64,000 nt of DNA from Agromyces rhizosphaerae (GTDB lineage: Bacteria; Actinomycetota; Actinomycetes; Actinomycetales; Microbacteriaceae): positions 186,001 through 250,000 of the forward strand of contig NZ_BSDP01000001.1 in the NCBI RefSeq assembly GCF_027925245.1, in the 5' to 3' direction. How positions within the stretch are numbered: position 1 is the first letter of the stretch; the number at the start of each line of letters is the position of its first letter. The notes under the pieces are model-generated. The model had not been told where the DNA came from and ran no database searches. It was given only the letters and a program-made list of their open reading frames with translations. The position numbers were made by a program, and so were the translations under genes. Below, in pieces: positions 21,541 through 41,286 of the stretch.

Positions 21541-21543
21541 GCC

Positions 21544-22555: not shown

Positions 22556-25360
22556 TCAGCGTTCCGGCCACGCGCGGCGATGCACCGCGCGGCCCGGCTC
22601 CCGGCACCAGATGGTGCCCGTGCCCGGGTCGAGCAGGGGCGGAAGCGTGCGATCGCCGGTCAGCGCCCGCAGGTTGGACGGCATGCCGTCCGCGAGCAGG
22701 ACGACCTCCTCGCGATGCGCGGCGACGAGGCTCCAGCTCGACGCCCAGGCGGCCGCGTCGCCGACGAGGAGCCGCGCCTCCGCGCCGCCCGAGGCGAGCA
22801 GGTCGGCCGTCGCGCCGCGCGAGAGCGGGTCGCCCGGATCGAGCTGCACGACGCGCCCGCCCGTCGCCGCCCGCCAGCGATCGGCGAACGCGCGCGGCGC
22901 GTCGGTGCACGCGAACGCGACGCCCTGCCCCGGCGGTTCCGGCGGCGCCTCGGGACGATCGCCGCGACCGGGGCGTTCGCGCGCGTGTCGACCGCGGGCG
23001 GGCTGCGCGCGATGCCGCGCGCGGAAGCGCAGGCCGCGCCACTGCCCCGAGCCGGGCGGCTCGTCGGGCGCCCACAGCGCGGGGTCGCCGCCGGCCGCCC
23101 GGACATCGGCCGCGCTCGGCAGGCGAAGCAGCAGGGTCTCTCGGAACAGCCCGGCGATCCGCGGCGACAGCGCCGCGCCCGGCAGCTGACGCACCGCCGC
23201 GGCGACGGGGATCGTGCGCGTGCGGAGGAGCCGTTCGAGCGCGCGCACGCCCTCGAGCCGGTACTCGTCGCCCCAGCCGTCGAACAGGTCGTCGAGGTCG
23301 TCGATGACGACCGCGAGCGGCGTCGGGCCCTGCGTCCGCTGCAGCACGTCCCAGACGAGGCTGCGCGGGGATCGCGGCGAGAGCTCCGCGACGGCGTGCT
23401 CCGCCCGGAGGCCTGCGGTGACCACGGCCAGCACGTCGCTCCGGCCGCTCGCGACGGCGCCGGCGACGAGCAGCGCGCCGGAGCGGGCGTCCCACTCCGC
23501 GACGACGTGCCGCTGGCGATCCACGTCGTCGCCCAGGCCGAGGGAGATCCGACCGGGCCCGGACGCGCCCCGGTCCGCGGACTCGAGGTGCTCGGGCAGC
23601 ACGACCGGCGGCAGCTCCGGCGCCCAGGGCGGCGCGGGAACCCGGGCACCCGCGAATCGCCGCGCGAGCGCCTCGATGTCGGCCCGGGTGACGAGCGCCG
23701 ACCGGAACGGCCGCGCGGTGCCGTCGCCGAGGTCGAGCAGGCCGGTGCCGGGCGAGCCGGCGGCGATGCGCGACGCGTCGGGGACGCCGACGACGCTCAC
23801 GCTCTCCGAGGGCTGGAGCACGCGCAGGCACGCGCGCACGCCGCTGTTGGCGCGGATCGACTCGGCGACGGCCGCGCTGGGACGCTGGGTGCCGACCACG
23901 AGGTGGATGCCGAGTGAGCGGCCGCGCGCCGCGAGGTCGTCGAACACCGCGGCGACCTCCGGCACGCGCCGCGCGAACTCCTGGTACTCGTCCACCATGA
24001 CGACCAGGCGCGGCTCGGCGCCGGGTGGCAGCGCCTCGAGCATCGCCGCCCCGGCCCCGCGGAGCACGGTCTCGCGGCGGCGGACCTCCGCCCCGAGGCT
24101 GCGCACCATCCGGCGCGCGGCCGGCTCGTCGAGGTCCGTGAAGACGCCGGCCACGTGCGGCAGCCGCTCGAGCGGCCCGAACGCCGCCGCCCCCTTGAAG
24201 TCCACGAGCACGAGCACCAGCTCCGCCGGGGGCCGGGAGGCGGCCATCGCGCAGGCCCAGGCCACGAGGAAGGCGCTCTTCCCGCTGCCGGTCGTGCCGG
24301 CGACCACCGCGTGCGGCCCCGCGGCCAGGTCGAGCACGGCCGGGTCGTCGCCGGAGCGCCCCACCGCGGCCGTCAGCCCGGGCCCGCCCGCCTGCGCGAG
24401 GTCGCAGCGCACGGGCGCGGCCGGCTCGTCCCGCGCCCGCGGGATCCGCGCCGCGACCGCGTGCGCCCACGCACGCGCCTCCGGCTCGCCGACGAGCACC
24501 GGCGCGCAGACGCCCACGGCGCCGTCGGCGCTCGTCGCCCGCGCGGAGCATGGGCCCTCCAGCTCCACGACCGCGCCCACGCGGGTCACGACCTCGTCGC
24601 GCCGCCCGGCGAGCGCGACCACGGTCTCGCCGGACGAGCGCGGCGACGCCGCATCCGCCGCCCCCTCGACGACGCGCAGCACCCGCCCGCCCGCGCCCGC
24701 CCGGTGCGGCAGGTGCTCCGTCCACGCCCAGTCCGCGCCGGGCGGCACGACGACCGCCAGCTCCCACGGCGGGGCGGCGAAGCACGCCTGCACCACGAGG
24801 CTCCGGGCGAGGGACCGCCCGAGCGCGGGCGGTCCGACGATGCCGACGCCCCGCGAGACGTCCGCCACGAGCGGGGCCCCGGCCAGCGTCGCCGCGGCGC
24901 GGACGACCTCGACCGCGTGCGCGTCCTCCGCGTCCCCCTCCAGCCGGACGGTGCTCGGCACCTCCCCCACCCCGACGACGATCCGCATCGGGTCGCCGCC
25001 CGACCACGGCAGCCGCGCCGCCGTGCCGTCGAGGACCGCCCGCGCGCCCGGGTCGGCGCGCCACCCGGCCCGTCGCTCGAGGTCGTGCGCGACGACGACC
25101 TCCCCGCGGACCCGGTCGAGCGCCTCCCGCCGATCCGCCTGCGCGCGCCGCGCCGTGCGGCGGGCGCCGCGCCCCCGGTCCAGCACCCCGGCGATCGCGA
25201 CGAGCGGACCGAGCAGCGCGAACACCAGCGCGAACGGCGACCCCGTCAGGAGCCAGAGCACGACCGAGCCCACGACCGGCGCGGCGGTCGCGAGCACCGG
25301 GAACGGCGGTCGCCCCGCAGGGCGGTCGAGTGGTGGCAGGCGCAGGCCGGGAGCGGTCAC
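22556..25360 (-). CDS. FtsK/SpoIIIE-domain ATPase, EccC-like
   Basis: A 934-residue membrane ATPase. Two hydrophobic helices near residues 20-60 are followed by a cytoplasmic linker and two FtsK-type domains. The first has Walker A AGTTGSGKS (Lys361), Walker B VVMVDEY and TQRPS. The second has a degraded P-loop AGAVASGRSD (Arg640 for Lys) and Walker B VVIDDLDDL. This intact-plus-degenerate pattern is that of type VII EccC motors. An alternative first codon is hard to find: GTG 25360 is the only good one before the membrane helices, leaving 97 bases after the transglutaminase-like gene. No WXG100 substrate or EccB/D/E gene is near. Confidence 0.85.
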   Translation of the reverse strand: MTAPGLRLPPLDRPAGRPPFPVLATAAPVVGSVVLWLLTGSPFALVFALLGPLVAIAGVLDRGRGARRTARRAQADRREALDRVRGEVVVAHDLERRAGWRADPGARAVLDGTAARLPWSGGDPMRIVVGVGEVPSTVRLEGDAEDAHAVEVVRAAATLAGAPLVADVSRGVGIVGPPALGRSLARSLVVQACFAAPPWELAVVVPPGADWAWTEHLPHRAGAGGRVLRVVEGAADAASPRSSGETVVALAGRRDEVVTRVGAVVELEGPCSARATSADGAVGVCAPVLVGEPEARAWAHAVAARIPRARDEPAAPVRCDLAQAGGPGLTAAVGRSGDDPAVLDLAAGPHAVVAGTTGSGKSAFLVAWACAMAASRPPAELVLVLVDFKGAAAFGPLERLPHVAGVFTDLDEPAARRMVRSLGAEVRRRETVLRGAGAAMLEALPPGAEPRLVVMVDEYQEFARRVPEVAAVFDDLAARGRSLGIHLVVGTQRPSAAVAESIRANSGVRACLRVLQPSESVSVVGVPDASRIAAGSPGTGLLDLGDGTARPFRSALVTRADIEALARRFAGARVPAPPWAPELPPVVLPEHLESADRGASGPGRISLGLGDDVDRQRHVVAEWDARSGALLVAGAVASGRSDVLAVVTAGLRAEHAVAELSPRSPRSLVWDVLQRTQGPTPLAVVIDDLDDLFDGWGDEYRLEGVRALERLLRTRTIPVAAAVRQLPGAALSPRIAGLFRETLLLRLPSAADVRAAGGDPALWAPDEPPGSGQWRGLRFRARHRAQPARGRHARERPGRGDRPEAPPEPPGQGVAFACTDAPRAFADRWRAATGGRVVQLDPGDPLSRGATADLLASGGAEARLLVGDAAAWASSWSLVAAHREEVVLLADGMPSNLRALTGDRTLPPLLDPGTGTIWCREPGRAVHRRAWPER

Positions 25361-25457
25361 CCGACCAGTGGATCGCGTGCCGCCCGGTGCGCCTCCGCCT
25401 CGGCAGGCGGCGCCGCCTCCGTCGCATCCGCAGCCCCATGTGGAGGAGCGTGCCGGC

Positions 25458-27719
25458 TCACCGCTCGCGCCGGCCGCGGGCCTCCCGGGTGAAGCTCGAC
25501 AGCGAGACGGCCGCGCGCAACCGCCGCCACCTGCCCCGTCGCGCGGCGATCCGGGTCCGCGCCTCGTCGACCACGCCCCAGACGGCGTCGGCCTGCGCGT
25601 CGTCGGGCCCGCCGGGTGCGAACAGCGACCGTTCGACGGCCGAGGCGAGCACGAGCGCCTGCATGCCACCCACGGCCGCGGCCTGCTCGGAGCGCGTGCC
25701 GGAGGCCGGCACGGCGTACCCGTGGTCGGTCGCGGCGTCGGCGAACTCGTTCCACCCGCCCGCGACCCGGTCCTCGGGCGCCGCCGCCGAGCGCCGGAGC
25801 CTCCGCCGCCGCAGCTTCGCCGCGATCACCGCCAGGAACGGGCTCGCGAGCAGCGCGAGCCCGAGCAGCGCCCAGCCCCCGACGCGCAGGATCGCGAGCA
25901 GCGCCTCGACCAGCGGCCCGACGCCGTCGTCGGAGGTGTCGTCGGCCGCCTCGGGCTCGGGCACCGTGCGCTCCACCGGGGTGCGCTCGGCCGGCGGCGG
26001 CAGCACCGACTGGGGTCTGGAGACCACGGTCGGCTCGTCGGGCTCGGCCTCCGGTACCGGGCGCGGCTCGGGGTTCGGGTCGATCGCGAGCCAGGTGCCG
26101 TCCGCGTCCTGCACCTCGATCCAGGCCGACATGTCGCTGCCGGTGACGAGCACCGCACCGTCCGCGGCGCCGGCGTCGTCACCCGGGTCGAAGCCCATCA
26201 CCACGCGTGCGGGGAAGCCGATCTCGCGGGCGAGCAACGCGGCCGCGGCCGCGTACTGCTCCGCGTCGCCGAGCATCGGGCGGTCGGTCGCGAGCTGGGT
26301 GAGCCGGTCGGCCGAGTGGCCCGACCGGCTCGCGGGCTCGTCGTCGCCCACGCCGTGGCTCACGTAGCCGTCGGCGCGCAGTCCCGCGATCACGCCCGCG
26401 AGCCGGGCGCCCGGCGGCTCCGAGGCGGGCGCGTAGCGGTCGAGGAGGCGATCGAGGCCGTCGGGCAGGGGCGCGCTCGCGGGTTGCACCGCGCGCCCGG
26501 GCCGGAGGGCCTCGAGGTCGTCGGCTTCGGCGACGGCGACCGCGGAGACCACGTACTCGTCGCCCTCGCGCAACCCCTCGGTGACCGCGGCCGTGCCGGT
26601 GGCGTCGTTGTAGAAGAACGTCGCGCCGAGCGGCTCCGCCCGCTCGCCGGAGAATGCGATGGACTCGATGCGGCCGACGCCGGGCAGCCAGACGCCCTCG
26701 TACCCGAGGATGCGCACGTCGACCTCGCGCATGCCGCCGGCGGGCGCGTCCTGGTCGAGCCGGTACGGCAGGCGGGTGAACGAACCGGACGCCTCGGCAC
26801 CGTCGGGTCCCCCGACCGAGAAGACGATGCCGTCCCAGGTGTCGAGCACGGCGAGCCGCAGCCGCTCCCCCGGCGGCAGGCCGCGCACCACGAGCATGGG
26901 GTCCCCCGCCCGATCGGTCCGGTGCCAGGCACGGAACCCGGCGAGCGGGCTGTCGGTCTCGCGCGGATCGAACGGCTGCTGCACGTAGGCGCGCACGACC
27001 TCGCGCTCGGTGCCGGGCGCGAGCACGACCGCCGCGCCCGTGCCCGCGAGCACCGCGACGATGCCGACCGCGAGGCCGCCCAGCACGCGGCGCACGGAGA
27101 CCGCGCGCCGCGGCGAGCCCGCGGACTCGGGCAGGCGCCGCACGGCGACCAGCCAGGCGAGGCAGGCGGCGACCATCCCGGCGCCGCCCACGATCCCCCA
27201 CGCGGACTCGCGAGGACCGAGCAGGATGCCGGCGAGGAACATCGCCACCGGCGGGAGCACCGCGAGGGCCGGGCGGCGCGAGCGCAGCGCGATGCTGACC
27301 GAGGCGGCCGACGCGGCCAGCGTGCTCACGAACACCGGCACCAGGAGCGCCTGGTAGGTGCCCACCGGGAGCACGATCGTCAGCAGCCGCGGCCAGGACA
27401 CTGCGGTTCCCGCCAGCAGCTCCACGATCCCCGCGGGCGTCGGCAGCAGGCCGGCGGCCGCGCCGGGCACCGCGAGCGGCACGCCCAGGAGCAGGTAGGC
27501 CGCGAAGCAGCCCAGCAGCACCGCCCACGCGGGCCACGAGCGGACCGCGCCGATGCCCGCGACCGCGAAGCCCGCGAGGGCCGCGGCCGCGACGACGACG
27601 AGCAGGTGCCGCGTCTCGTGGATCGGCCACCAGGGCACGGCCGCGGCCGCGACCGCGAGCCCGAGCAGGGGGAACACCCACCACCGCACGGGTCGCCGCA
27701 TCGTGCCCGCCTCGCTCAT
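25458..27719 (-). CDS. TgpA-like membrane transglutaminase fold, catalytically degraded
   Basis: A 753-residue protein with about seven hydrophobic helices in the first 230 residues, a large extracytoplasmic part, a transglutaminase-like core, and one more helix near 600 before a cytoplasmic tail. In the core the Cys position is Ala486 (GDAEQYAAAAALLARE), the His position is Ser531 (DMSAWIEV), and only Asp547 (AIDPNPE) remains of the triad. It therefore cannot act as a normal transglutaminase or protease. It overlaps the DUF58 stop by ATGA. A MoxR-DUF58-TgpA trio is a recurring envelope module of unclear chemistry. Confidence 0.9.
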   Translation of the reverse strand: MSEAGTMRRPVRWWVFPLLGLAVAAAAVPWWPIHETRHLLVVVAAAALAGFAVAGIGAVRSWPAWAVLLGCFAAYLLLGVPLAVPGAAAGLLPTPAGIVELLAGTAVSWPRLLTIVLPVGTYQALLVPVFVSTLAASAASVSIALRSRRPALAVLPPVAMFLAGILLGPRESAWGIVGGAGMVAACLAWLVAVRRLPESAGSPRRAVSVRRVLGGLAVGIVAVLAGTGAAVVLAPGTEREVVRAYVQQPFDPRETDSPLAGFRAWHRTDRAGDPMLVVRGLPPGERLRLAVLDTWDGIVFSVGGPDGAEASGSFTRLPYRLDQDAPAGGMREVDVRILGYEGVWLPGVGRIESIAFSGERAEPLGATFFYNDATGTAAVTEGLREGDEYVVSAVAVAEADDLEALRPGRAVQPASAPLPDGLDRLLDRYAPASEPPGARLAGVIAGLRADGYVSHGVGDDEPASRSGHSADRLTQLATDRPMLGDAEQYAAAAALLAREIGFPARVVMGFDPGDDAGAADGAVLVTGSDMSAWIEVQDADGTWLAIDPNPEPRPVPEAEPDEPTVVSRPQSVLPPPAERTPVERTVPEPEAADDTSDDGVGPLVEALLAILRVGGWALLGLALLASPFLAVIAAKLRRRRLRRSAAAPEDRVAGGWNEFADAATDHGYAVPASGTRSEQAAAVGGMQALVLASAVERSLFAPGGPDDAQADAVWGVVDEARTRIAARRGRWRRLRAAVSLSSFTREARGRRER

Positions 27720-29032
27720 GCCGCCGCCGACCGGGCCAGGATCGCGCGCAGGTCGTCGAGCTGCCCGATCGTGAGCACCTGCATCCCGCCGACGCGACGC
27801 GACGCCGGCGCGGCGCCCGCGGCGCAGACGACGCCGACCACCTCGACGCCCGGTCGCGCCTGCGCCGCGGCGGCCCGCAGCCGCGCCACGCCCGTGAGCG
27901 AGCCGGTCACGACGAACGCCAGCGAGATGCCGAGCACGGACTCGGCGGTCATCCGCATCGCATCCACCAGCTGGGGTGCGCGCGGATCCTGCTCGACCCC
28001 GCAGAGCGCGTCGAGCAGGCGGTCGCGCGAGATCGTCGCGAGGTCGAGCAGGCCGCGCATCCCGGCGCGCGCGGTCGTCGGCACAGAGCTCGGCACGATC
28101 ACCGACGCGCCGCGGGCGTCGCGGATCGCGCGCACGCCGAGCGAGCCCACGGCGCCCACCGCGAGCTCGAACTCGTCGGGGTCGGCGTAGTGCGCCGGCT
28201 CGGCGTCGAGCAGGATCATCATGTGGCTGCGACGGGTCTCCTCGAACTGGCGCACCATGAAGGTGCCCGTCTTCGCCGAGCTGCGCCAGTGGATGTGCCG
28301 CCGGTCGTCACCGGGGACGTACTCGCGAAGGGCGTGGAACGCGACGTCGCTCGCGGTGAGGTCGCGCGTCGGCGAGCCCTCCAGGTCGCGCACGAAGCCC
28401 GTGCTCACCGCGGGGATCGGGATCGTCCTCGGGTGCACGTAGAGCCGCGACTGCTCGGCCCAGACGACCTCGCGCCGCACCAGGCCGACGGGGTCGGCCC
28501 GCACCGTGCGCACGGGCCCGATATCCACGATGCCGCGCCGTCCGGTCGGGATCTCGATCGGCCGCCGCTCGGCGACGCCCGCGCTGAGGTTCGCGACCGC
28601 GAGGGCCGTCGTGCCGCCGCCCACCCGGACCTCGACCCCCACGCCGACCGCGCGCCGGCGGCCGATGTTCGTCACGACCACCGCCGCCTCGGCGGGGTCG
28701 CCCACGACGACCCGCGGTTCGGGGAGCTCGAGCCCGACGACGAACGCGCTGCGCCCGACCAGGTAGAGGCAGGCGGCGGCCAGCGCGACCGCGAGCGCCC
28801 AGCCGATGACGACCGCCTCCAGCCAGCCGAACAGGTACCCGGCGACGAGGCCCGCGGCCGCGATGCCGGCGACCCACCAGCCGGTCGGCGTCACGACCTG
28901 GCGCACGGCGGCGGCCGCGCGCGCGAGGCCCGACCCGGCGGCCTGGCCGGCGCCGACGACCGCGCCGACGGCCTCGGCGAGCGCGCCGTCGCGACCGCGG
29001 GCCTCGTCCGCCTGGGCCCGGTCGATCGTCAC
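27716..29032 (-). CDS. DUF58 domain membrane protein
   Basis: A 438-residue protein: a cytoplasmic N-terminus, two membrane helices (about 50-95), a beta-rich segment (VVTNIGRRRAVGV), then the DUF58 motif REYVPGDDRRHIHWRSSAKTG near residue 245 and a vWA-like region (MMILLDAEP). DUF58 proteins are MoxR partners that act like VWA adaptors for the AAA+ ATPase. The GTG start overlaps the moxR stop (GTGA) and its own stop overlaps the transglutaminase-like start, so all three are coupled. Confidence 0.93.
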   Translation of the reverse strand: MTIDRAQADEARGRDGALAEAVGAVVGAGQAAGSGLARAAAAVRQVVTPTGWWVAGIAAAGLVAGYLFGWLEAVVIGWALAVALAAACLYLVGRSAFVVGLELPEPRVVVGDPAEAAVVVTNIGRRRAVGVGVEVRVGGGTTALAVANLSAGVAERRPIEIPTGRRGIVDIGPVRTVRADPVGLVRREVVWAEQSRLYVHPRTIPIPAVSTGFVRDLEGSPTRDLTASDVAFHALREYVPGDDRRHIHWRSSAKTGTFMVRQFEETRRSHMMILLDAEPAHYADPDEFELAVGAVGSLGVRAIRDARGASVIVPSSVPTTARAGMRGLLDLATISRDRLLDALCGVEQDPRAPQLVDAMRMTAESVLGISLAFVVTGSLTGVARLRAAAAQARPGVEVVGVVCAAGAAPASRRVGGMQVLTIGQLDDLRAILARSAAA

Positions 29033-30000
29033 ACCGCCTGCCTCGCGTTCGGCGGCGCCGTCTCGAGCAGCACCTGCGCCACGACGCTCGACGCGTTCAC
29101 GCCGTCGAACTCGGCCTCGGCCTCGAGGATGAGGCGGTGCGCGAGCACGGGTTCGGCGAGCGCCTTGACGTCGTCGGGCACGACGAAGTGCCGGCCGCGG
29201 CTCGCCGCGTGCGTCTTCGCGGCGCGGATCAGCCCGAGGGCCCCGCGCACGCTCGCGCCGAGCCGCACCTCGACCGCGGAGCGCGTGGCGTCGACCAGGC
29301 GGGACACGTAGTCGTGGATCGTGGAGTCGACGTAGACCTGCCGCGCCTGCGCGGCGAGCTCCACGACCTCGTCGGCCCGCACGATGCCGTGCACGGCCTG
29401 CTCGTGCGCGCGGTGGTCGGCGCCCTCGAGGATCCGGATCGTCGACGCGTGGTCGGGGTACCCGATCGAGGTGCGCAGCAGGAACCGGTCGAGCTGCGCC
29501 TCGGGCAGCCGGTAGGTGCCGGCCTGCTCGATCGGGTTCTGGGTCGCGATCACCATGAACGGCGCGGAGACCGGATGGGTGACGCCGTCGACGGTGACCT
29601 GACGCTCCTCCATGACCTCCAGCAGCGCCGACTGGGTCTTCGGGCTGGCGCGGTTGATCTCGTCGGCGAGCACGATGTTCGCGAAGACGGGCCCCCCGTG
29701 GAACTCGAACGCGCCGGAGCGCTGGTCGTAGACGCTCATGCCGGTGATGTCGCCGGGCAGCAGGTCGGGCGTGAACTGCACCCGGTTGCTGGTGCCGGCG
29801 ACCGACTGCGCCATGGCGCGCGCGAGAGAGGTCTTGCCGGTGCCCGGCACGTCCTCCAGCAGCAGGTGCCCCTCCGTGAGCAGCGCCGTGAAGGCCAGCC
29901 GGATCACGTGGCTCTTGCCGAGGAGCACCTGCTCCACGCCGCCGACCAGCCGGTCGAAGGTGTCGGCGAACTCCGTCGCCTGCTCGGGTGTCATCGTCAT
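29029..30000 (-). CDS. MoxR-family AAA+ ATPase
   Basis: A 323-residue MoxR ATPase: Walker A EDVPGTGKTSLA (about 50-61), Walker B IVLADEINRA, sensor 1 ATQNPIEQAGTYRLPEAQLDRF, and the C-terminal lid with the arginine-bearing VRLGASVRGALGL. MoxR proteins remodel or mature partner complexes with VWA/DUF58 proteins. The start is the ATG at 30000, which has a GAGGAG site eight bases upstream. It follows the giant exoprotein gene by 19 bases, suggesting it serves assembly of that protein or its complex. Confidence 0.95.
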   Translation of the reverse strand: MTMTPEQATEFADTFDRLVGGVEQVLLGKSHVIRLAFTALLTEGHLLLEDVPGTGKTSLARAMAQSVAGTSNRVQFTPDLLPGDITGMSVYDQRSGAFEFHGGPVFANIVLADEINRASPKTQSALLEVMEERQVTVDGVTHPVSAPFMVIATQNPIEQAGTYRLPEAQLDRFLLRTSIGYPDHASTIRILEGADHRAHEQAVHGIVRADEVVELAAQARQVYVDSTIHDYVSRLVDATRSAVEVRLGASVRGALGLIRAAKTHAASRGRHFVVPDDVKALAEPVLAHRLILEAEAEFDGVNASSVVAQVLLETAPPNARQAV

Positions 30001-30019
30001 CCGCGTGCTCCTCGCATCG

Positions 30020-33000
30020 TCAGTCGCTCTCGTATCGTTTCGTGATCCCGCCCACCGTGACGTCGAGCCACGCGGTGCCGCCGGGCCCGCCGCCGCCGAC
30101 GACGCAGCTGGTCTCGGCCCCGGCGGGGGACCCCGGCCCGGGCCCCGTCCCGCAGCGGAAGGTCGCCTCGAGCGCACCGTTGTCCGGCGGGTTCGTCCAG
30201 GTCCAGCGCGACGCCGGGGCGTCCCACCGCAGGCTGGGCAGCGCGAAGTCGAGGGAGGGCTCCGGGTCCGCCGGCTGCACGGGGCTCCACGGCCCGCAGC
30301 TGCCCCACGGCGCACACGCCCGCAGCTGGAACCGCACGGCCTCGCCGAACGGCCGCCCGAGGATCTCCCGCGGCCAGCCGGTTCCGCCGAACGACTGGAC
30401 CGTGCCGGCCAGCTGCACCCCCGCGGCGTCGACCGCGACGATCTCGTACCGGCTCGCACGCGGGGTGACCGACGTGACCCGGTAGTCCCAGGCGAGTCCG
30501 TCGCCGGTCCAGCGCATCTCGCCGCGCACCTCGTCGATGACCCGGTCGAAGGGTCGCGGCGTGACGACGAGCACGGCGCTCGACGCGCAGCCCGCACGGT
30601 TGTAGCCCCAGACGACGAACGCGTACTCGGTGTTCTCGGCCGAGAGCCCCTCGAATCGCGCCGACCGCGCGTCGGGCCCCAGCGTCCGCGTCTCCTCGAC
30701 GCCCGCACCGTTCGTGGGCGGGGAGACCGTGCCGGGCGCCGGAGTGCTCACCGAGCAGGCCTGGGGCCCGGTCGGGAGGGTGCGGCTGCCGACCGCGAGG
30801 CGCTGCACGAAGTAGCCGCGGATCGCATCGCCGTTCGGGTCGAACGCGCTCCACGTGACCGTGACCGCACCCGCCGACGCATCGCCGATCGCGTCCGCCG
30901 TGCCCGCCCGGGGCGCCCCGAACGGCGTGCCGGTGACGGATGCCTCGCGCCAGGTCGACAGCGCCGGGTAGGCGTCGTTGCGCGGGCTGATCGCGACCGG
31001 CACGGAGCTGCCGTTGACGAGTCCGGTCCGGTCGAGCACGCACGCGGTGGCCGAGCAGATCGAGGCGGCCGACACCTCGCCGATCTGGCCGGCGACGATG
31101 ACCACGTAGCGGGTCACCGGGGTGCCGCCGCCCGCGGGCACGACCGGGGTCCAGGTGACGCGCAGCCCGCCGTCGAGCGGTGCCGCGCGGAGGTCGGCGG
31201 GCGCGCCCGGCACGACGTCGGACCAGATCGTCTCCGGCGGCCGGGCGGCGTCGGAGAGCCCGATGCCGTTGCGTGCGCGCACCTCGACCGCGACCTGGTT
31301 GGCCCGTCCGTTGCCGAGCGTGGGCACGGTGCAGTCGGTCGCCGGGCACGAGTGCACCGCGAGCACCTCGCCGCTGCCCGGGGCGCGCAGGGTGACCTCG
31401 TACGCCGTGATCGGCGAGTTGTTGGCCGGCCCGGGCGAGAAGTCGATGCTGATCGACCGGTCGCCGAACCCGGTCGCTCGGACCTCGGCGACGGGCTCGG
31501 GACGGTCCTGCACGGAGATCGTCACGACGCCCCAGGCGTAGCGACCGGCATCGCCCGTGGCATCCGCCACCTGGTACTGGATCGTGCTGTTCACCGGCTC
31601 GGCGCCCTCGTCGACCGTGACCCGAAGCGAGGTGCGGTCCGCGCTCGGCACCACGTGCACGCCGCTCGGCAGGCTCGCGTCGTCGGCGCCGCGCACGCGG
31701 ACCACCCGCAGCGGGACGTCGGGGAACGGGTTGGTCGCCGCGTCGTTGGCGAGCACGTCGACCGTGGTCGTCGAGCCGCGTCGCGCGACCGCGCTGTCGG
31801 GCGCCGGCACCGCGAGCGGCCGGGTCGACGGCACGACCCGCAGCTCGATGCGGCCGGCCCGCCCGTCGCCGGAGTCGTCCTGCACCGCGACGGTCACCGC
31901 CGCGCGGGTGCCCGCGAGCGTGCCGGCGGCCGTCGTGACCCGGAGCACGGTGCCGTCGAGCGACAGGTCGAACCCGTCGGGCAGCGGTTGCACGAGCCGG
32001 AACGCGAGCTCGTCGAGGTCGGCCGGGTAGGGGTAGCTGGTGAGCTTCAGCAGGTCGATCTCGCGCTGCTGGCCGGGCTCGAACTCGATGAGCCCGCCCG
32101 TGAACGAGGGCGGCTGGTTCTCGCGCGGCAGCACCGTGATCGGCAGCACGATGGTCGCGGTGCGGGCGTCCGGGTCGTCGGCGGATGCGCCGTCGGTGAC
32201 GACGAACGACACCGAGGCCGGCCCGAAGTACTCGTCGGCGCTCCGGAAGCGCAGGGTGTCGGCGTCGACCACGAGCTCGCCGCCGTCGCCGTTCGAGGCC
32301 CGCACCGTCGCCTCGTCGGTGATCCGCACTGGGCGGCCACCGACCGCGACGACGTGCTCGTTGATCTCGATCAGCACCTCCTGCTCGCTCTGCACGATGA
32401 TCGGCGGGGCGTCGAGCCGCAGCTGGGGCAGGGCGTCCTCGTAGCCGGGGACCCGGACGAACGCGTAGGCGTCGAGCTCGGGATCGTCGGGGTGCACCAC
32501 CCGGAACGGGATCACCTGCCGCTCGTCGGCGAGCGTCACGCGGATCGTGCCGTCGCCGCGCACGACCGCGCCCGACTCCCAGCCGGGCACGAGCTCCACG
32601 CCGAGGCGCTCGGCGGGGCCGTCGGCGAAGAACACGTTCTCACGCACGTCGACGTCGACCCAGGACCGGTCGAGGATGTCCGACAGCGAGAGCACGGTGT
32701 CCCCCGCCTCGGGTCTCGCGAGCGGCGCCTCGGCGCTCACGTCGACCACGAGGAACGCCGACGCCGTCGCCTGGCCCTCGTTGCGGATCGTGTAGATGAA
32801 GCTGCTGCGCCCCTCGACGCGCGGCACGGCGATCCGCACCAGGTCGCCGTCGACGGATGCCTCGGCGGATCCCTCCACCGGTTCGACCGCGACGATCGTG
32901 AGCGGCCCCCCGTCGGGGTCGGAGTCGTTGTCGAGCACGCGCACGGCGACCTCGCCGCCCGGGCGCGCGTGCACCTCGTCCTCGACCGCGACCGGCGCGC

Positions 33001-35893
33001 GCACGCCGTCGAGCCGCGGCGCGATGCCGACGCGCACGGTCCCAGTCGCCCGTGCGCCGAGCGCGTCGACGACCGCGTACCGGAAGACGTCGGTGCCCGC
33101 GGAGTACTCGCCGGCCTCGTACTCGATCCAGTCGACGCCCGTGCGCACGACGATGCCGCGCTCGGGCGGCGTCTCCTGGCCGATCAGCTGCACGGAGTCG
33201 CCGTCGGGGTCGATCCCGAGCAGGGGGATGCGGATGCGGACGGTCTCGCCGGCGAGCACGCGCGACGTGACCACCCGCGGCACCGGCGCGGAGTTGTCGT
33301 CGGCGTCGACGTCGTTCACCGAGATCCGCACGGTCGCCGTGGCGAACTGGCCGTCCGGCCCCTCGACCCGGTAGACCGCGCTCACGATGCCCGGGCGGGA
33401 CGGCGCGAGGAATCGCAGCACGTCCCCGGAGGCGAACAGCAGCCCGTCCGCCTCCGCGGGGGGCTCGACGAGGTCGGGCGCGAGCGAGATCGGCTCGTCG
33501 TCCGGGTGCCGGTCGTTCGCGAGCACCGGGATGTCGATGACGTCGCCCACGCGCACGGAGGCCGTGTCGTCGGCCGCGACCGGCGCCTGGACGCGCTCGA
33601 GCGCCGGGATCTCGACGACCCGGACGGTGCCGGTGGCCTCGGCCCGGCCGTTGCTCACGGTGTACTCGAACTCCGCGGCGCCGTCGACGAGCGGATCGTT
33701 GAGCGTGACCCGCAGCACGCGATGCTCGATCACCTCGACGCGCATGCCCCGTTCGTCCGCGGTGTCGTCGGCGCCCGTGATCACCAGCACGCCGCCGGTC
33801 GGGTCGATGTCGGTCGCGAGGACGTCGACGTCCACGGTCTGCCGCACCCGCAGGAACGCGGTGTGCGGCACGGTCACCGGCGTGGTGTCGGCGTCCGGCG
33901 GCGCGGCCACGTCGACCCGCACCACGCCGACCGCGGTCTGGTCGCCGTCGGTCACGGTGTACTCGAGGTAGTGGGTGCCCACCGCGTCGCTGGTGAATCG
34001 GAAGGTGCCCTGGTCGAAGTCCGGCACGAGCACGACGTCGGGCTTCGCCGGCACGGCGGTGAGGCGCGGCGTGCCGCTGCCGCCGCTCACGTGCTGCAGC
34101 GGCGAGATCGTGCGCTCCTCGCCCGCCGAGGCGAGCACCGCGAACGGCTCGGCGACGAGCGGCACCGACCCCGCCGCCCGCACGGCGACCTGGAGCGTGC
34201 CCGCGCCGATCGCCCGTCCGTCGGAGACCGAGAGCGCGACGGTGCGCAGCGGGCCGCGGCCGCCCCGCTCGGTGAAGACGACCTCGCCGCCGGCCGTGTA
34301 CGTCGCGGTGTCTGGCGGCCCGGCGGCGGCGTCGGCGAGGTAGAACGGGTCGCCGTCGGGGTCGTACCAGTCCGCCAGCACGTCGGTGGAGACCCGGCCG
34401 CCGGCCTCGACCACCGCCGACGCGCCGCGCGCCTGCACCGGGGGCCCGTTCTCGTCGTCGGCGCGCGCGACGATGCGCACGACCGCGGAGGCGCTGCCCC
34501 CGCGTCCGTCGTCGATGGTGTAGTCGAGCGCGACCGTGCCCGTCGCCCCCGCCGGCAGCGTGACCTGCAGCTGCTGGTCGTTGCTCACCAGGTCGACCTC
34601 GACGCCCTCCGGCGCCGTGCCGACGGACGAGATCGCGAGCACGTCGCCGTTCGCGTCGTAGTCGTTGAGCAGCACGGGCAGGATCGTCGTGCGCTGCGGC
34701 CGGGCGCCGAACTCGTCGTCCACGGCCACGGGCGGGACCTGCACGCGCTCGAGGGTCGGCGGGCTCGACGGGTCGTTCTGCTCGACGACGCGCTCGTCGG
34801 TCTCCACCCGCAGCAGCGCGTCCCAGTCGTCGACCAGGGCCCAGCCGTCGCGCACCGACCAGGAGCGGCCGGACGCCGCGTCGTTCAGCACGAGGGCGGA
34901 CCCGTTGCTGCGGAAGGCGAGCTCGCCCGTCGCGCCGCCCTCGAGGATCGCGTCGGCGGTGTCGCACGAGCTCCATCCCGAGGCATCCGCCCATGCCGCA
35001 TAGGCGCAGTCGTCGGCGACCACCGGCGCGGCGGGCACCCCGAACCGATCGCCCGCGAGCACCTCGGGCGTCCCGGCGTCGAACGGCACCGCGAGCAGGC
35101 CGCTCCGGTGCGCGACGAGCACCGCGTCGCCGTCCGTCGCGGGCTCCTGCAGCACGACGCCGCCGCCGGGCCCCACCAGGTCGCCCAGCTCGACGCTGCC
35201 GCCCTCGAGGTGCAGCACCTCGGCGGTGGCGTCGAGCAGCGCCCAGCGGCCGCCGACCGTGGTGATCGACCACTCGGCGTCGGCCGCGATCTCGCCGCCG
35301 ACCTGCCAGGTGCGCTCGACGGCGGTGCCGTCCGCGGCGTCGAACCGGGAGACCCGCGCGGTGGAGGGCGTGAACGCGACCATGGTCCCGTCCTCGTCGG
35401 CCGCGGTGACGGTGCCCGCCCCGAAGGTCAGGTCCGGGTCGCGCTGGCTGTCGAACTCCGCGAAGTCGTCGATGGGGGTCGACCACACGTCGCCGTCGGA
35501 GGCGATCACGACGCGATCGCCCGCGAGCGCGACCGCGGGCCGCACGGGCGGGATCGCGACGGACTCCGAGATCGTGGCGGTCGCGGGGTCGAGGACATCG
35601 AGGTTCGCGCGCTCGGGGTCGACCACGAGCACGGTCGCGCCGCGCTGCACCAGCACGGGCGCGGCCACTCCGGTCTCGACCGCGGTGTCGAGCTCGCGCA
35701 CGGCGGTGTTCAGGCGCCCGACCGACTCGATGCCGCCGTTCGCGACCCACACGGACGCGTCGCCGAGGTCGACGCGCTGCGAGGTGTAGCCGCCGCTGGC
35801 GATCGCGACGCCGGCGATGAGGGCGGCCGTCATCGTCGTGGCCGCGGCGGTGAGCACGCCGGACCGGTGCGCGCGCAGCCACTCGACGATCAC
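30020..35893 (-). CDS. Giant membrane-anchored exoprotein: propeller-like region, cadherin/Ig-like repeats, Fn3
   Basis: A 1957-residue protein with a single N-terminal anchor helix (residues 12-33) and no C-terminal sorting signal, so it is type II with the bulk outside. About residues 40-400 are a beta-rich part with repeating VVxxD and GDRVVIASDGDVW patterns, propeller-like. About 410-1480 contains roughly 11 cadherin/tandem-95 type units, each with a strand such as VAVDDEFGARP, a DxLxNDxDPDGD-type calcium-site pattern and a YTV-type end strand. The C-terminal third holds three or four Fn3 domains (SPITAYEVTLRAP, TPVTRYVVIV). The GTG start overlaps the kinase stop. Its role is probably adhesion, wall binding or a sensor stalk; none is proven. 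Confidence 0.88.
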   Translation of the reverse strand: MIVEWLRAHRSGVLTAAATTMTAALIAGVAIASGGYTSQRVDLGDASVWVANGGIESVGRLNTAVRELDTAVETGVAAPVLVQRGATVLVVDPERANLDVLDPATATISESVAIPPVRPAVALAGDRVVIASDGDVWSTPIDDFAEFDSQRDPDLTFGAGTVTAADEDGTMVAFTPSTARVSRFDAADGTAVERTWQVGGEIAADAEWSITTVGGRWALLDATAEVLHLEGGSVELGDLVGPGGGVVLQEPATDGDAVLVAHRSGLLAVPFDAGTPEVLAGDRFGVPAAPVVADDCAYAAWADASGWSSCDTADAILEGGATGELAFRSNGSALVLNDAASGRSWSVRDGWALVDDWDALLRVETDERVVEQNDPSSPPTLERVQVPPVAVDDEFGARPQRTTILPVLLNDYDANGDVLAISSVGTAPEGVEVDLVSNDQQLQVTLPAGATGTVALDYTIDDGRGGSASAVVRIVARADDENGPPVQARGASAVVEAGGRVSTDVLADWYDPDGDPFYLADAAAGPPDTATYTAGGEVVFTERGGRGPLRTVALSVSDGRAIGAGTLQVAVRAAGSVPLVAEPFAVLASAGEERTISPLQHVSGGSGTPRLTAVPAKPDVVLVPDFDQGTFRFTSDAVGTHYLEYTVTDGDQTAVGVVRVDVAAPPDADTTPVTVPHTAFLRVRQTVDVDVLATDIDPTGGVLVITGADDTADERGMRVEVIEHRVLRVTLNDPLVDGAAEFEYTVSNGRAEATGTVRVVEIPALERVQAPVAADDTASVRVGDVIDIPVLANDRHPDDEPISLAPDLVEPPAEADGLLFASGDVLRFLAPSRPGIVSAVYRVEGPDGQFATATVRISVNDVDADDNSAPVPRVVTSRVLAGETVRIRIPLLGIDPDGDSVQLIGQETPPERGIVVRTGVDWIEYEAGEYSAGTDVFRYAVVDALGARATGTVRVGIAPRLDGVRAPVAVEDEVHARPGGEVAVRVLDNDSDPDGGPLTIVAVEPVEGSAEASVDGDLVRIAVPRVEGRSSFIYTIRNEGQATASAFLVVDVSAEAPLARPEAGDTVLSLSDILDRSWVDVDVRENVFFADGPAERLGVELVPGWESGAVVRGDGTIRVTLADERQVIPFRVVHPDDPELDAYAFVRVPGYEDALPQLRLDAPPIIVQSEQEVLIEINEHVVAVGGRPVRITDEATVRASNGDGGELVVDADTLRFRSADEYFGPASVSFVVTDGASADDPDARTATIVLPITVLPRENQPPSFTGGLIEFEPGQQREIDLLKLTSYPYPADLDELAFRLVQPLPDGFDLSLDGTVLRVTTAAGTLAGTRAAVTVAVQDDSGDGRAGRIELRVVPSTRPLAVPAPDSAVARRGSTTTVDVLANDAATNPFPDVPLRVVRVRGADDASLPSGVHVVPSADRTSLRVTVDEGAEPVNSTIQYQVADATGDAGRYAWGVVTISVQDRPEPVAEVRATGFGDRSISIDFSPGPANNSPITAYEVTLRAPGSGEVLAVHSCPATDCTVPTLGNGRANQVAVEVRARNGIGLSDAARPPETIWSDVVPGAPADLRAAPLDGGLRVTWTPVVPAGGGTPVTRYVVIVAGQIGEVSAASICSATACVLDRTGLVNGSSVPVAISPRNDAYPALSTWREASVTGTPFGAPRAGTADAIGDASAGAVTVTWSAFDPNGDAIRGYFVQRLAVGSRTLPTGPQACSVSTPAPGTVSPPTNGAGVEETRTLGPDARSARFEGLSAENTEYAFVVWGYNRAGCASSAVLVVTPRPFDRVIDEVRGEMRWTGDGLAWDYRVTSVTPRASRYEIVAVDAAGVQLAGTVQSFGGTGWPREILGRPFGEAVRFQLRACAPWGSCGPWSPVQPADPEPSLDFALPSLRWDAPASRWTWTNPPDNGALEATFRCGTGPGPGSPAGAETSCVVGGGGPGGTAWLDVTVGGITKRYESD

Positions 35894-37236
35894 GGATTCG
35901 GCTCCGGGGGGACCTCCACGCACCGCTCGGCGCTGGGATCGCCCACGCGGCCCGCGCGCGTGACCGTGACCGTGGCGCACACCACCGACTGCTCGCCCGC
36001 GTCGAGCCGGTACTCGGTGTCGACCTGCATGCTCGACGGGCGGCCGTCGACGGTGACGACGTAGGCGTCGTCGTCGGTCACGCCCGGGTCGTCCCACGAG
36101 AAGAGGACGGTGGTCCCCTCGACGGACGCCGAGACGTCGCTCACCCGCGGGATCTCGGTCTCCGCCGGTCGGGGGGCCAGCTGCACCGCCGTGACCGCGA
36201 CCACGGCGCCGGCGGCGACGAGCGCACCGGCCGTCCACCACGTCGCGGGCCTGCGGAGCAGCGCACCGGCCCGGCGTCCCGCCGTGGGCGGCGTCGCGAC
36301 CTGCTCGCCGGGCGACTTGAGCACGGTGCGGTCGTCCGGGTCGATCGCGGTGGCCTGCGCCCAGTCGTCCATGCGCGCCTCGATCGGGGTCTGCGGCAGG
36401 TCGAGCTCGGCCTCGACGTCCTGCAGGTCGCGCAGCAGCTCCTCGACGCCGCCCTGGCGATCGGCCGGCTTGCGCGACATCGACCGTCGCAGCACCGCCT
36501 CCAGGGAGGCGGGCACGTCGGGGCGATCCACGGCGGGCGGCGCGGCGGCGGAGATCCGCTGGATGAGCTCGTAGGCCGAGTTGTCGCCGCCCGGCACCTC
36601 GAACGGCGAGCGACCGGCCAGCAGGGAGTAGACGGTCGCGCCGAGCGACCAGACCTCGGATGCCACGCTGCCGACGTCCTCGTCGGCGAGCACCTCGGGC
36701 GCGGACCACGGCACCGACAGCCCGATCGACTCGTCGTCGTCGACGTGGCCCCGCGACGCGGCGATGCCGAAGTCGCTCAGCACGGGATGGCCGAAGGCCG
36801 TCATGAGGATGTTCGACGGCTTGATGTCGCGGTGCAGCACGCCCTCGCGGTGCGCGCTCTCGATGGCCGAGCCGATGCGGATGCCGACCTCGAGCGCCTC
36901 GGCGACCGGCAGCGGCTCGGCGCGGTAGCGCTGCGCCATCGCCGACGAGCAGTACTCCATGACCAGGTAGGGCCGACCGTCGGCCGCGACGCTCGCCGCG
37001 TAGACGGTGAGCACGGCCGGGTGGGAGCTCAGCCGGGCCATCAGGTTCGCCTCGGCGCGGAACCGGCGCCGCAGCTGCTCGTCCACCACCTCGGCCAGGA
37101 GCACCTTCACCGCCACCGGGCGCCGCGGCATCTGCTGCTCGTAGAGGAACACGTCGGCGAAGCCGCCCGTGCCGAGCACGCGGACGAAGGCGAAACCGGG
37201 GATGGTCGGCGGCGTCGAGGGCAGGCGCCTGGTCAC
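35890..37236 (-). CDS. Transmembrane Ser/Thr protein kinase (PknB-like catalytic domain)
   Basis: A 448-residue kinase. The catalytic domain (about 14-270) has GTGGFADVF, Lys44 in VAVKVL, HRDIKPSN with Asp137, DFG and SAPEVL. A proline/basic linker leads to one membrane helix (about 345-367) and a short extracellular beta domain (Fn3-like, SWDDPGVTDDDAYVVTVDG) instead of PASTA repeats. The GTG at 37236 has a strong GGGAGG site; the frame is open further upstream. Coupling by overlap to the giant exoprotein suggests the kinase senses it or phosphorylates its partners, and the PP2C and FHA genes upstream complete the circuit. Confidence 0.93.
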   Translation of the reverse strand: MTRRLPSTPPTIPGFAFVRVLGTGGFADVFLYEQQMPRRPVAVKVLLAEVVDEQLRRRFRAEANLMARLSSHPAVLTVYAASVAADGRPYLVMEYCSSAMAQRYRAEPLPVAEALEVGIRIGSAIESAHREGVLHRDIKPSNILMTAFGHPVLSDFGIAASRGHVDDDESIGLSVPWSAPEVLADEDVGSVASEVWSLGATVYSLLAGRSPFEVPGGDNSAYELIQRISAAAPPAVDRPDVPASLEAVLRRSMSRKPADRQGGVEELLRDLQDVEAELDLPQTPIEARMDDWAQATAIDPDDRTVLKSPGEQVATPPTAGRRAGALLRRPATWWTAGALVAAGAVVAVTAVQLAPRPAETEIPRVSDVSASVEGTTVLFSWDDPGVTDDDAYVVTVDGRPSSMQVDTEYRLDAGEQSVVCATVTVTRAGRVGDPSAERCVEVPPEPNP

Positions 37237-37300
37237 GCGACCTCCCTCGGACCCCGCCACCGCCGGCCTCGCCGGCGTGCCTCTGACGGGTACCGCTCCC

Positions 37301-37306
37301 ATTCTA
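37301..37306 (-). promoter_or_regulatory. Possible -10 element upstream of the kinase gene
   Basis: The minus strand reads TAGAAT here, about 65 bases before the kinase start, in the 124-base gap between the PP2C and kinase genes. This is the largest gap in the cluster, so an internal promoter is plausible. No convincing -35 is visible, so this is weak. Confidence 0.3.
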
Positions 37307-37360
37307 GGGTTCCGGGGGCGGGCGGGCCGGACGTGCGGAGCGGTCGGTGGATGCGGCGGA

Positions 37361-38176
37361 TCACTCCCCGTCCGCGCCGCCCGCTGCGCCGTCCCCGGGC
37401 CGCACCCGGACCACGTCGAGGACCACGACGGTGATGTTGTCGCGCCCGCCGTTGCCGAGCGCCGCGTCCATGAGCTGGCGGGCCGCCGCCTCCGGCTTGG
37501 GCGAGCCGAGCAGGAAGTGGCGGATGCCGTACGGCGTCAGCTCCTTGGTCAGCCCGTCGGAGCAGGCGAGGAGCCGCATGCCCTCCACCACCGGGACCGA
37601 GCGGTAGTCGGGGACGGGCGTCTCGTGGAAGCCCACCGCACGCGTGATCACGTTGCTGTGCGGGTGGGTCTCGGCCTCCTCCTGGGTGATGTGGCCCGCG
37701 TCGACCAGCTCCTGCACGATCGAGTGGTCGACGGTGAGCTGCTCGAGCTCGCCGTCGAGCAGGAGGTAGACCCGGGAGTCGCCGATGTTGAAGACCGTCC
37801 ATGCGGGAGCACCGTCGACCGTCGTCAGCCCCACGCCGGTGACCGTGGTCCCGCTGCCCTCGTCGGTCACGCCGATGCTGCGCTCCATGTCGCTCACCGC
37901 CGCGGCGAGCGAGCGCCCGATCTCTGCCGGGAGGACCGTCGTGCGCCCGCCGTGCTCGGCGAGGCGGGTGACGACCGCCGCGCTGGCGAAGTCGCCCGCG
38001 GCGTGCCCGCCCATGCCGTCGGCGACCGCGAAGACCGGCGGGCGGGCGACGAACGAGTCCTCGTTCACCTCGCGGCGGAGCCCCGTGTCGGTGAGCGCGG
38101 CCCAGGCGAGCGTGACCTCGGTGCCGTCCGGCAGCGTCACGGCGGTGCCGGGATTGCCGTGTCCGATCTGCGTCAC
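37361..38176 (-). CDS. PP2C-family Ser/Thr phosphatase
   Basis: A 271-residue PP2C/PPM phosphatase. All metal-site motifs are present: RREVNEDSF, VADGMGGHAAGD, FNIGDSRVYLL, ACSDGLTKEL and GGRDNITVVV. No membrane helix is visible, so it is soluble. It would reverse the action of the neighbouring kinase. The GTG start overlaps the FHA stop (GTGA), coupling phosphatase and phospho-reader synthesis. Confidence 0.95.
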   Translation of the reverse strand: MTQIGHGNPGTAVTLPDGTEVTLAWAALTDTGLRREVNEDSFVARPPVFAVADGMGGHAAGDFASAAVVTRLAEHGGRTTVLPAEIGRSLAAAVSDMERSIGVTDEGSGTTVTGVGLTTVDGAPAWTVFNIGDSRVYLLLDGELEQLTVDHSIVQELVDAGHITQEEAETHPHSNVITRAVGFHETPVPDYRSVPVVEGMRLLACSDGLTKELTPYGIRHFLLGSPKPEAAARQLMDAALGNGGRDNITVVVLDVVRVRPGDGAAGGADGE

Positions 38177-39180
38177 GTGCCTTGTCCTTCGTCGGTGAGC
38201 GGCTCGCGGACTCGGTCCTCCGCGACTGCGAGGATCTCGACGAGTGTACCGCCGATGTCGAGCCGCGACCCGGGCGCCACGACGACGGACTCGCCTCCGC
38301 GGAGCCGCCGGCGGGTGCCCGACGGGCCGATCACGGTGGTGCCGTTGCGCGAGTGCAGGTCGGTGACGACGACCGTCCGCCCGACCGGGCGCAGCTCGAC
38401 GTGGGTCGAGGAGACCGCCGGCAGGGCCGACGGCACGGCGTGGAGCGTGGGCGCGACGCCCCCCGGGATGCGCGGCGGGCTGGGCCGGCGTCCGACGTAG
38501 ACCGGACCCTCGAGCGGCTGCGACGGCGCGTCGCCGATGCGGAAGGCCGACGCCGCGGGCCGGTCCGCCCCCACGGCCGGCACGCCGCCGACCGGCGTCG
38601 CGGGTGCGGGCGGCACGGGCACCGGCAGCACCAGCTGGGTGTCGGTCGTGGGCGCCCGGCGCGCCCGCGTCTCCTCGTCGACGTCGGTCGCCGCGTGCGC
38701 CGCGTCGCAGGACCAGCCGACCACCGGGCCGCGCGCCGTCGCCCCGGGTCCGCCCACGTGCTCGCCGTCGTGGGGCCCGTCGAGGCCCGCCGCAGCGGAG
38801 CGGATGAGCAGGCTCGTGACGTCGCCGAACTCGGCGAGGTGGAACGGCCGGATGCCGCGGTCGTCGAACCGTCGGCTCCCGCCCGGGGAGCGGAGGTCGA
38901 GCGCCGCATCGCCGCGGACCACCGCGGTGACCCGCCGCGCCCCCGGCCCGTCGTCGTCGAAGCGCACGAGGGCGAACCCCGCCGCATCCGCCGCGGCCGT
39001 CGGCAGCACGCCGACCAGTTCCTCGACCAACGCCCCCGGGTCGTCGGCGAGCCGTCCGAGTCCCGCGAGCGTGCGCGCGTCGGCCGGCGCCGCGACGGCG
39101 GCGAGGAAGGCGCGGCCGACGACGACGTCCCAGTCGGGAAGCCCGTCGCCCGCGCCGATGAAGACCCGCCCCTCGTCCAT
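38173..39180 (-). CDS. FHA-domain protein
   Basis: A 335-residue soluble protein. The N-terminal half (about 1-130) is an uncharacterised alpha/beta domain with no motif I can name, followed by an Ala/Pro-rich linker. A C-terminal FHA domain (about 230-320) carries VGRR, SSTHVEL and HSRNGTTV, the conserved phosphothreonine-binding Arg, Ser/His and Asn positions. It should bind a phosphorylated kinase or another target. Starts GTG 39183 and ATG 39180 are adjacent; I use the ATG. It is the first gene of the cluster in transcription order. Confidence 0.9.
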   Translation of the reverse strand: MDEGRVFIGAGDGLPDWDVVVGRAFLAAVAAPADARTLAGLGRLADDPGALVEELVGVLPTAAADAAGFALVRFDDDGPGARRVTAVVRGDAALDLRSPGGSRRFDDRGIRPFHLAEFGDVTSLLIRSAAAGLDGPHDGEHVGGPGATARGPVVGWSCDAAHAATDVDEETRARRAPTTDTQLVLPVPVPPAPATPVGGVPAVGADRPAASAFRIGDAPSQPLEGPVYVGRRPSPPRIPGGVAPTLHAVPSALPAVSSTHVELRPVGRTVVVTDLHSRNGTTVIGPSGTRRRLRGGESVVVAPGSRLDIGGTLVEILAVAEDRVREPLTDEGQGT

Positions 39181-40652: not shown

Positions 40653-40714
40653 GGAAGGGCCTCCTCGGGATCGCGTGCGGCCCATCGTAACGGCCGAACG
40701 CGGCATCCGAAAGC

Positions 40715-40764
40715 CGAATTCGCCATTGATTCCGTTGCGAATTCGTGAAATCACGACGGATTCG
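40715..40764. promoter_or_regulatory. Cluster of palindromic sites in divergent promoter, likely Lrp operator
   Basis: CGAATTCGC (40715-40723) and GCGAATTCG (40737-40745) are perfect inverted repeats with a 13-base spacer. Each contains the palindrome CGAATTCG, and the two centres lie 23 bases apart, about two helical turns. A variant CGGATTCG follows at 40757-40764. Between them TCGTGAAATCACGA (40743-40756) is another palindrome. AT-containing palindromes are rare in this GC-rich window. An Lrp/AsnC protein, encoded at 40801, binds such phased repeats. Confidence 0.65.
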
Positions 40765-40800
40765 CTTGCTGGAGGCATCCGTCACTGACAGAATCGACGC

Positions 40801-41283: not shown

Positions 41284-41286
41284 GAA

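Follow-up and report, generated by a model that had tools for sequence, protein, structure and literature searches.

What could join phosphorylation signaling, a giant exoprotein and a secretion-type ATPase in one gene cluster? The question is raised by eight genes on the minus strand, at positions 22556 to 39180, of a 64,000-nucleotide stretch of the Agromyces rhizosphaerae genome (contig NZ_BSDP01000001.1, positions 186,001 to 250,000; hereafter the window). In transcription order they encode an FHA-domain protein, a PP2C-type phosphatase, a Ser/Thr kinase, the exoprotein, a MoxR ATPase, a DUF58 protein, a TgpA-like membrane protein and an EccC-like motor (Table 1). A preliminary description, made from the sequence alone, gave the neighborhood no assigned function and proposed that MoxR and DUF58 assemble the exoprotein, with the motor exporting or positioning it. 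The first statement was incomplete because the cluster matches the PFNA operon of Bifidobacterium; that such neighborhoods occur in actinobacteria stood up well, and the proposed export is weighed below. By comparison of genomes, the window holds a PFNA-type cluster outside the bifidobacteria, beside a short EccC-type motor with a probable, unlinked substrate. On balance we think it somewhat likelier than not that the PFNA-type module and the adjoining motor make up a reduced type VII secretion device under the control of phosphorylation.

The short motor and an unlinked WXG100 gene

The best matches of the motor in the PDB are to EccC, both by sequence and by predicted fold (predicted local distance difference test (pLDDT) score of 86.2), in agreement with the preliminary description. 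The protein has a hydrophobic pair near its start, no Pfam FHA match and an intact first P-loop, which is also intact in the 15 motors aligned; the second P-loop, with Arg for Lys in the window, is variable and keeps its Lys in some relatives. P-loop and Walker B residues are invariant in 25 of 25 aligned sequences. Against TIGR03924, the EccC equivalog of ESX (T7SSa) systems, the motor scores 201.3 bits, below the cut-off of 509.15. The FtsK-like proteins of 40 genomes fall into three classes: long EssC-like motors (∼1490 residues), short motors of the window type (∼1000 residues) and FtsK proper; short and long motors were separated by the part of the profile matched, bits and frame length.

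Across 160 genomes of the window's own family (code f1, presumably Microbacteriaceae), the motor and a WXG100 gene occur together in 113, the motor alone in 1, the WXG100 gene alone in 5 and neither in 41; these motor counts draw on a list that ended at about 150 matches, and 41 genomes were searched again with a laxer cut. Counted by genus, the same four classes are 60, 1, 2 and 22. The sole genome with a motor only is 75% complete. Co-occurrence of motor and WXG100 gene is thus near-perfect in this family, which is a direct result of the counts, and from it and the other genomic evidence we infer a link to secretion.

The WXG100 gene in question lies far from the motor. The genome has two PF06013 matches, at 2.33 and 2.55 Mb, and none falls in the window at 186 to 250 kb, as the preliminary description had said of the latter. 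The orphan gene at 2545650–2545934 (∼2.55 Mb) is unlinked to the motor and encodes a WxG motif and a C-terminal YxxxE, which together are an export signal; W.G and Y...E are both kept in 14 of 14 aligned copies. Examples of genes next to the WXG100 gene in genomes with the short motor are groEL in L059, a histidine kinase gene in L046 and a response regulator gene in L049. These features and the co-occurrence suggest that the orphan WXG100 protein is the probable substrate of the motor. In the survey of 337 genomes of the order, genomes of genus g96 (family f12) are absent among the matches to the orphan WXG100 family; they have the exoprotein, and the two with both flanks have EssC-type motors (L141+142, L143+144).

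Genomes of 1.1 to 1.4 Mb carry eroded motors. Four that were read (L076, L077, L078 and L079) have 318 to 343 residues, a hydrophobic start and one P-loop, and a fifth has a 363-residue frame; the WXG100 gene is kept in these genomes. To our knowledge, a motor of 318 to 343 residues is smaller than any known type VII motor. Among the short-motor matches listed, at least 11 have one in-frame TGA (G040, G041, G064, G081, G099, G124, G136, G167, G187, G191 and G198), and each of the three genomes sampled from genus g2 has a match of this kind.

A PFNA-type cluster outside the bifidobacteria

The published accounts of PFNA, as far as consulted, describe an operon of pkb2, fn3, aaa-atp, duf58 and tgm, to which some species add prpC, a hypothetical gene and fha (PMC8430577, PMC6803598). 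The window shares these five core genes and their order, with PP2C and FHA genes attached and a kinase with a single transmembrane segment. It differs in three respects: its PP2C and FHA genes precede the kinase gene, whereas those of PFNA come after tgm; the TgpA-like gene has an EccC-type motor behind it; and the genome is not that of a bifidobacterium. The 2019 paper of the two reports that no orthologues were found outside bifidobacteria, and PFNA is thus published as restricted to them; in our survey of the order, the exoprotein family is present in 205 of 337 genomes, from 57 of 103 genera. The main texts of both papers contain no mention of ftsK, and the open-access literature, as far as searched, yielded no link between PFNA and type VII secretion.

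With the exoprotein as query, named genomes yielded 39 loci, mostly from Microbacteriaceae and including soil, water or plant genera; the nearest is from an Agromyces assembly, with 87% identity. Twenty-four of them hold the seven genes from FHA to TgpA-like on one strand and in the order of the window, and among the other 15 several are cut by contig ends, some are rearranged and one has no detected FHA gene. The motor stands behind the TgpA-like gene in 14 of the 32 loci that have the latter. A small gene intervenes in 12 of these 14, being absent from the window and its nearest relative (L003); the small genes of L004–L006 look FHA-like, and the Agreia counterpart matches Pfam FHA. In the f4 group, probably Bifidobacteriaceae, the five core genes are in PFNA order in 14 of 15 loci (no MoxR gene was detected in L195). 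The window's genome has a second cluster (L153, 3030001–3050000) with the order PP2C-FHA-kinase-exoprotein-MoxR-DUF58-TgpA-like, an exoprotein frame of 1782 residues and no motor match in the stretch.

The motifs of kinase, phosphatase, FHA protein and MoxR are retained in nearly all aligned relatives, which for the first three agrees with the preliminary description; in MoxR, the ADEIN motif is present throughout (36 of 36), and the variants shown carry GTGKT. The exoprotein has an N-terminal membrane helix (residues 10–32), where its one transmembrane-like stretch lies (13–31), and no such stretch at its C-terminus. An AlphaFold model of residues 1–420 (pLDDT 83.7) places a beta-propeller at about 47–355, after the helix, with YVTN- and BamB-type propellers as the nearest solved folds at modest TM-scores, and Ig-like and fn3 repeats follow by Pfam. 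One locus (L032:10046–22300) has two full exoprotein genes in tandem, and close pairs of exoprotein matches also occur, for example, in G361 and G518.

The TgpA-like protein is unlikely to be the enzyme that its name implies. We aligned it to 6g49, the solved transglutaminase TgpA of P. aeruginosa. TgpA has a Cys-His-Asp triad, whereas in the window the Cys of the GFC..YA motif is replaced by Ala486 (codon 26262–26264) and Ser531 stands where the His is expected; only the Asp is present. The Cys is missing from all 85 aligned homologues (Asp in 29, Ala in 24, Ser in 15, Gln in 10, Glu in 6 and Gly in 1), and none of the 85 has a Cys within six columns of the catalytic position. The His is retained in 21 of the 85. 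The only Cys residues of the window's protein, 71 and 186, both lie in its membrane part. The 15 homologues with Ser are those of the 15 f4 loci. Absence of the catalytic Cys is read directly from the alignment, and a structural role is the likeliest one for such a protein. The TGM of PFNA was suggested in print to be a transglutaminase-like enzyme, whereas its homologues here, by sequence, lack the residue required by that label.

Long EssC-type motors beside related clusters

PFNA-type clusters also lie near a second kind of motor. Twenty-five exoprotein loci from other families, chosen from the exoprotein lists for variety of family and regardless of motors (stretches of 14 to 30 kb, some reaching a contig end), include 12 with an EssC-type motor in the stretch, one of these on the opposite strand. 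Among nine EssC-linked loci, selected for closeness of exoprotein and EssC matches, five have the order exoprotein-MoxR-DUF58-TgpA-FHA2-PP2C-FHA-kinase-EssC. Re-annotation of 18 motor loci places a gene of ∼90 residues behind EssC in 12 (with one other gene between the two in L132+133); nine of these 12 genes were scanned and all nine match PF06013 at E ≤ 0.01, three of them above the cut-off. Given the EssC and PF06013-matching genes beside them, PFNA-type clusters recur next to what appear to be real type VII loci. By eye, the EssC of L122+123 has an FHA-like stretch. Between kinase and EssC stands a gene for a protein of ∼240 residues; in the three examples read (L122+123, L151+152 and L096+097; ∼230–260 residues) it has, by eye, an FHA-like N-terminus and a helix-turn-helix-like C-terminus and is possibly a phospho-dependent regulator. 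The window's genome itself has a second, type VII-like locus (L075, 2320001–2339900), with a long EssC-like motor of 1489 residues and a WXG100 gene ∼4 kb downstream.

Layout of the locus

Codon-position bias, family scans and the sequence itself bear out the eight minus-strand genes, their family names and the four stop-start overlaps of the preliminary description. The overlaps are of 4 bases each: GTGA at FHA/PP2C, kinase/exoprotein and MoxR/DUF58, and ATGA at DUF58/TgpA-like. As listed from 25669, the motor frame would overlap the TgpA-like gene by 212 bases, and starts at 25360 or 25297 are likelier. The kinase, whose start may be 37236, has one transmembrane-like segment (358–376) and a further C-terminal part beyond it. 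Against the NCBIfam Stp1 model the phosphatase scores 198.8 bits, below the cut-off of 230, and the metal motif typical of von Willebrand factor A (vWA) domains is not kept in the DUF58 protein. No EccB, EccD, EccE or mycosin gene was seen in the cluster itself or in the eight flanking genes that were covered by Pfam scans (one without a match), no search having been aimed at them in window or genome.

Table 1. Genes of the cluster, listed in the direction of transcription
Feature	Position in window	Strand	Supporting features
FHA-domain protein, 335 aa	38173–39180	-	Pfam FHA 26.6 bits; motifs GR, S..H and NG present; no transmembrane-like stretch
PP2C-type phosphatase, 271 aa	37361–38176	-	Pfam PP2C_2; metal-site motifs kept
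Ser/Thr kinase	35890–37302	-	Pfam Pkinase 131.4 bits; HRD, DFG and VAVK present
Exoprotein, 1957 aa	30020–35893	-	9 Big_9 and 2 fn3 stretches (Pfam)
MoxR AAA+ ATPase, 323 aa	29029–30000	-	Pfam AAA_3 212 bits; Walker A/B kept
DUF58 protein	27716–29032	-	Pfam DUF58 45.8 bits; hydrophobic segment 74–99
TgpA-like membrane protein	25458–27719	-	Pfam TgpA_N and Transglut_core
Short EccC-type motor, ∼934 aa (913 if start 25297)	22556–25360	-	Pfam FtsK_SpoIIIE

The flanks of the cluster are metabolic or regulatory; at 39216–44129 and 20161–22533 their genes (aldehyde dehydrogenase, AsnC-type regulator, aminotransferases, FAD oxidoreductase and L-asparaginase II) suggest amine catabolism. We rejected the upstream aldehyde dehydrogenase gene (39216–40652) as a member because of these flanks and because a 478-residue gene also stands before the FHA gene in L064 and L068, two loci whose genomes have the exoprotein cluster at another place. 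A defense system was likewise rejected, the PADLOC matches being to shared kinase or ATPase domains.

One device or neighbors

Several observations weigh against a joint secretion device. Five genomes of the family, counted above, have the WXG100 gene and no detected motor. The WXG100 family is present in 276 of the 337 genomes of the order, and its pairing with the motor is shown in one family only. On an FtsK protein tree of 53 genomes (55 fetched, picked by known FtsK positions, with two rows lost for want of a motif and one very long branch remaining), we count 10 changes for the motor and 8 for the WXG100 gene; the WXG100 labels of five Herbiconiux-type genomes on this tree come from the Pfam listing and not from profile A3. 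A phylogeny-aware test of co-loss points in the right direction and is not significant: among independent pairs on well-supported branches, four are concordant, none is opposite and two show no difference (p = 0.125). As for the cluster, no motor occurs in the stretches read of the 15 f4 loci, and no kinase gene of the window type was detected in 28 motor loci without exoprotein genes, a set chosen for motors that are separate, reduced or without exoprotein. Lastly, presence of the motor and of the exoprotein family are not associated over the 160 genomes (95 with both, 19 with motor only, 38 with exoprotein only and 8 with neither; odds ratio 1.05, p = 1, where p-values, as for motor and WXG100 gene, ignore kinship and the count includes exoprotein paralogues from other clusters), so that the two halves are separable and may be mere neighbors.

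This last possibility is the alternative that survives best, and we consider it rather unlikely. PFNA would then be an independent system for envelope sensing or assembly, and motor and WXG100 protein a separate system, with FHA and PP2C genes in common merely through old synteny. Besides the missing association, it draws support from motors that stand apart: four Microbacterium genomes pair the short motor with PP2C only, and five Agreia genomes have it in a second locus of the order FHA-PP2C-small gene-motor. Conversely, Herbiconiux loci with a complete flank have a window-type cluster and no motor in the stretch, as do all the f4 loci. Against it, the cluster lies repeatedly, and above chance, close to two different motor types: among 150 exoprotein matches listed in the window's family, 75 lie within 26 kb of a motor against ∼3 expected, 58 of them near short and at least 17 near long EssC-type motors. 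The recurrence of the order kinase-small protein-EssC-WXG100 downstream also argues for a joint device, as does a PP2C gene beside the motor in 17 of the 28 exoprotein-less loci; seven of the other 11 are reduced motors without any cluster family nearby.

The model of the preliminary description, in which MoxR and DUF58 assemble the exoprotein and the motor exports or positions it, is improbable. The conserved neighborhood, with the motor behind the TgpA-like gene in just under half of the loci that could show it, speaks for such a model; the odds ratio near unity, the exoprotein's own N-terminal membrane segment and the WXG100 gene as the motor's constant partner speak against export by the motor, which we rejected. 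Because the exoprotein family is spread across the order, soil, water or plant genera included, host immune sensing is unlikely as an ancestral function, and a host-facing cytokine sensor or adhesin, as proposed for bifidobacterial PFNA, convinces us a shade less still; that the “TGM” lacks its catalytic Cys also counts against it. The evidence in its favor is published, namely that an FN3 fragment binds TNF-alpha and that Pkb2 phosphorylates the ATPase (PMC8430577, PMC6803598, as far as consulted). A role of the motor in DNA translocation, or as the coupling protein of conjugation, is suggested by its FtsK_SpoIIIE match and is very improbable given its best matches by sequence and fold (EccC/EssC), the further FtsK-like class in the same genomes, which we take as true FtsK, and the persistence of reduced motor copies with the WXG100 gene in genomes of 1.1 to 1.6 Mb.

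Relation to type VII secretion systems

Among classified systems, the nearest to the secretion device that we favor is the actinobacterial type VII secretion system d (T7SSd), which, in the parts of the survey consulted, comprises a motor, WXG100 protein, kinase and giant Ig-like protein (Garrett, Higginson and Palmer 2024, PMC11217815). Common to both are an EccC/EssC motor, a WXG100 protein, a membrane Ser/Thr kinase and a giant, membrane-anchored Ig-like protein; the window's kinase fits TsdD by description, not by sequence comparison. We do not file the window as T7SSd because three features fail. The T7SSd motor is EssC-type with N-terminal FHA domains, whereas that of the window is short and has no FHA match; its WXG100 gene lies in the locus, whereas ours is unlinked; and its TsdI has a signal peptide and a C-terminal transmembrane segment, whereas the exoprotein is anchored N-terminally. 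A further T7SSd component is TsdH, a small protein with one transmembrane segment. In outline, the window's system may nevertheless work like T7SSd. MoxR, transglutaminase, fibronectin and “Microbacteri” have no mention in the text of the survey as consulted. The same source describes T7SSe, T7SSf and T7SSj as having a phosphatase and a separate FHA protein with the motor, and a kinase in T7SSe and T7SSj; these differ in belonging to Bacillota and in a ubiquitin-like TsxB, which is not among the eight window genes, and the MoxR-DUF58-TgpA trio is not mentioned for them. In a 2025 review, as far as consulted, the order of the mycobacterial moxR1 operon (MoxR, DUF58, then a vWA protein) resembles that of PFNA, and neither a giant Ig-like exoprotein nor a kinase gene nor a type VII motor is mentioned for it (PMC12067865). 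The gating of a secretion machine by kinase, phosphatase and FHA protein recalls the threonine-phosphorylation switch of type VI secretion, a comparison drawn in PMC11217815; it is an analogy only, and no type VI gene was identified here.

In the reading that we favor, such a device would work as follows. The short motor would export the unlinked WXG100 protein, while the membrane kinase would sense the envelope and phosphorylate threonines on the motor or its partners. FHA proteins would dock on these phospho-threonines, and PP2C would reset the switch. The exoprotein may form a membrane-anchored rod of propeller and Ig-like domains across the wall, in a role comparable to that of TsdI or EsaA. 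MoxR, DUF58 and the pseudo-transglutaminase may assemble or remodel the envelope part of the device, with no cross-linking of protein.

More tentatively, we propose that PFNA is not an immune sensor of bifidobacteria. It would instead supply regulation and a wall-spanning part, with a structural pseudo-transglutaminase, to an as yet unnamed branch of type VII secretion that extends across the order. Its motor would be of either of two kinds: a long EssC, for which the WXG100 gene is linked, or a short EccC, for which a dedicated WXG100 gene is unlinked. In some of the smallest genomes the short EccC is eroded to 318 to 343 residues with a hydrophobic start and one ATPase domain. Such a view would join PFNA and type VII variants, two literatures that, in the papers searched, are silent on each other's components. 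It would also replace a host-specific account of PFNA by one that holds across the order, and would correct the enzyme label of its “TGM”.

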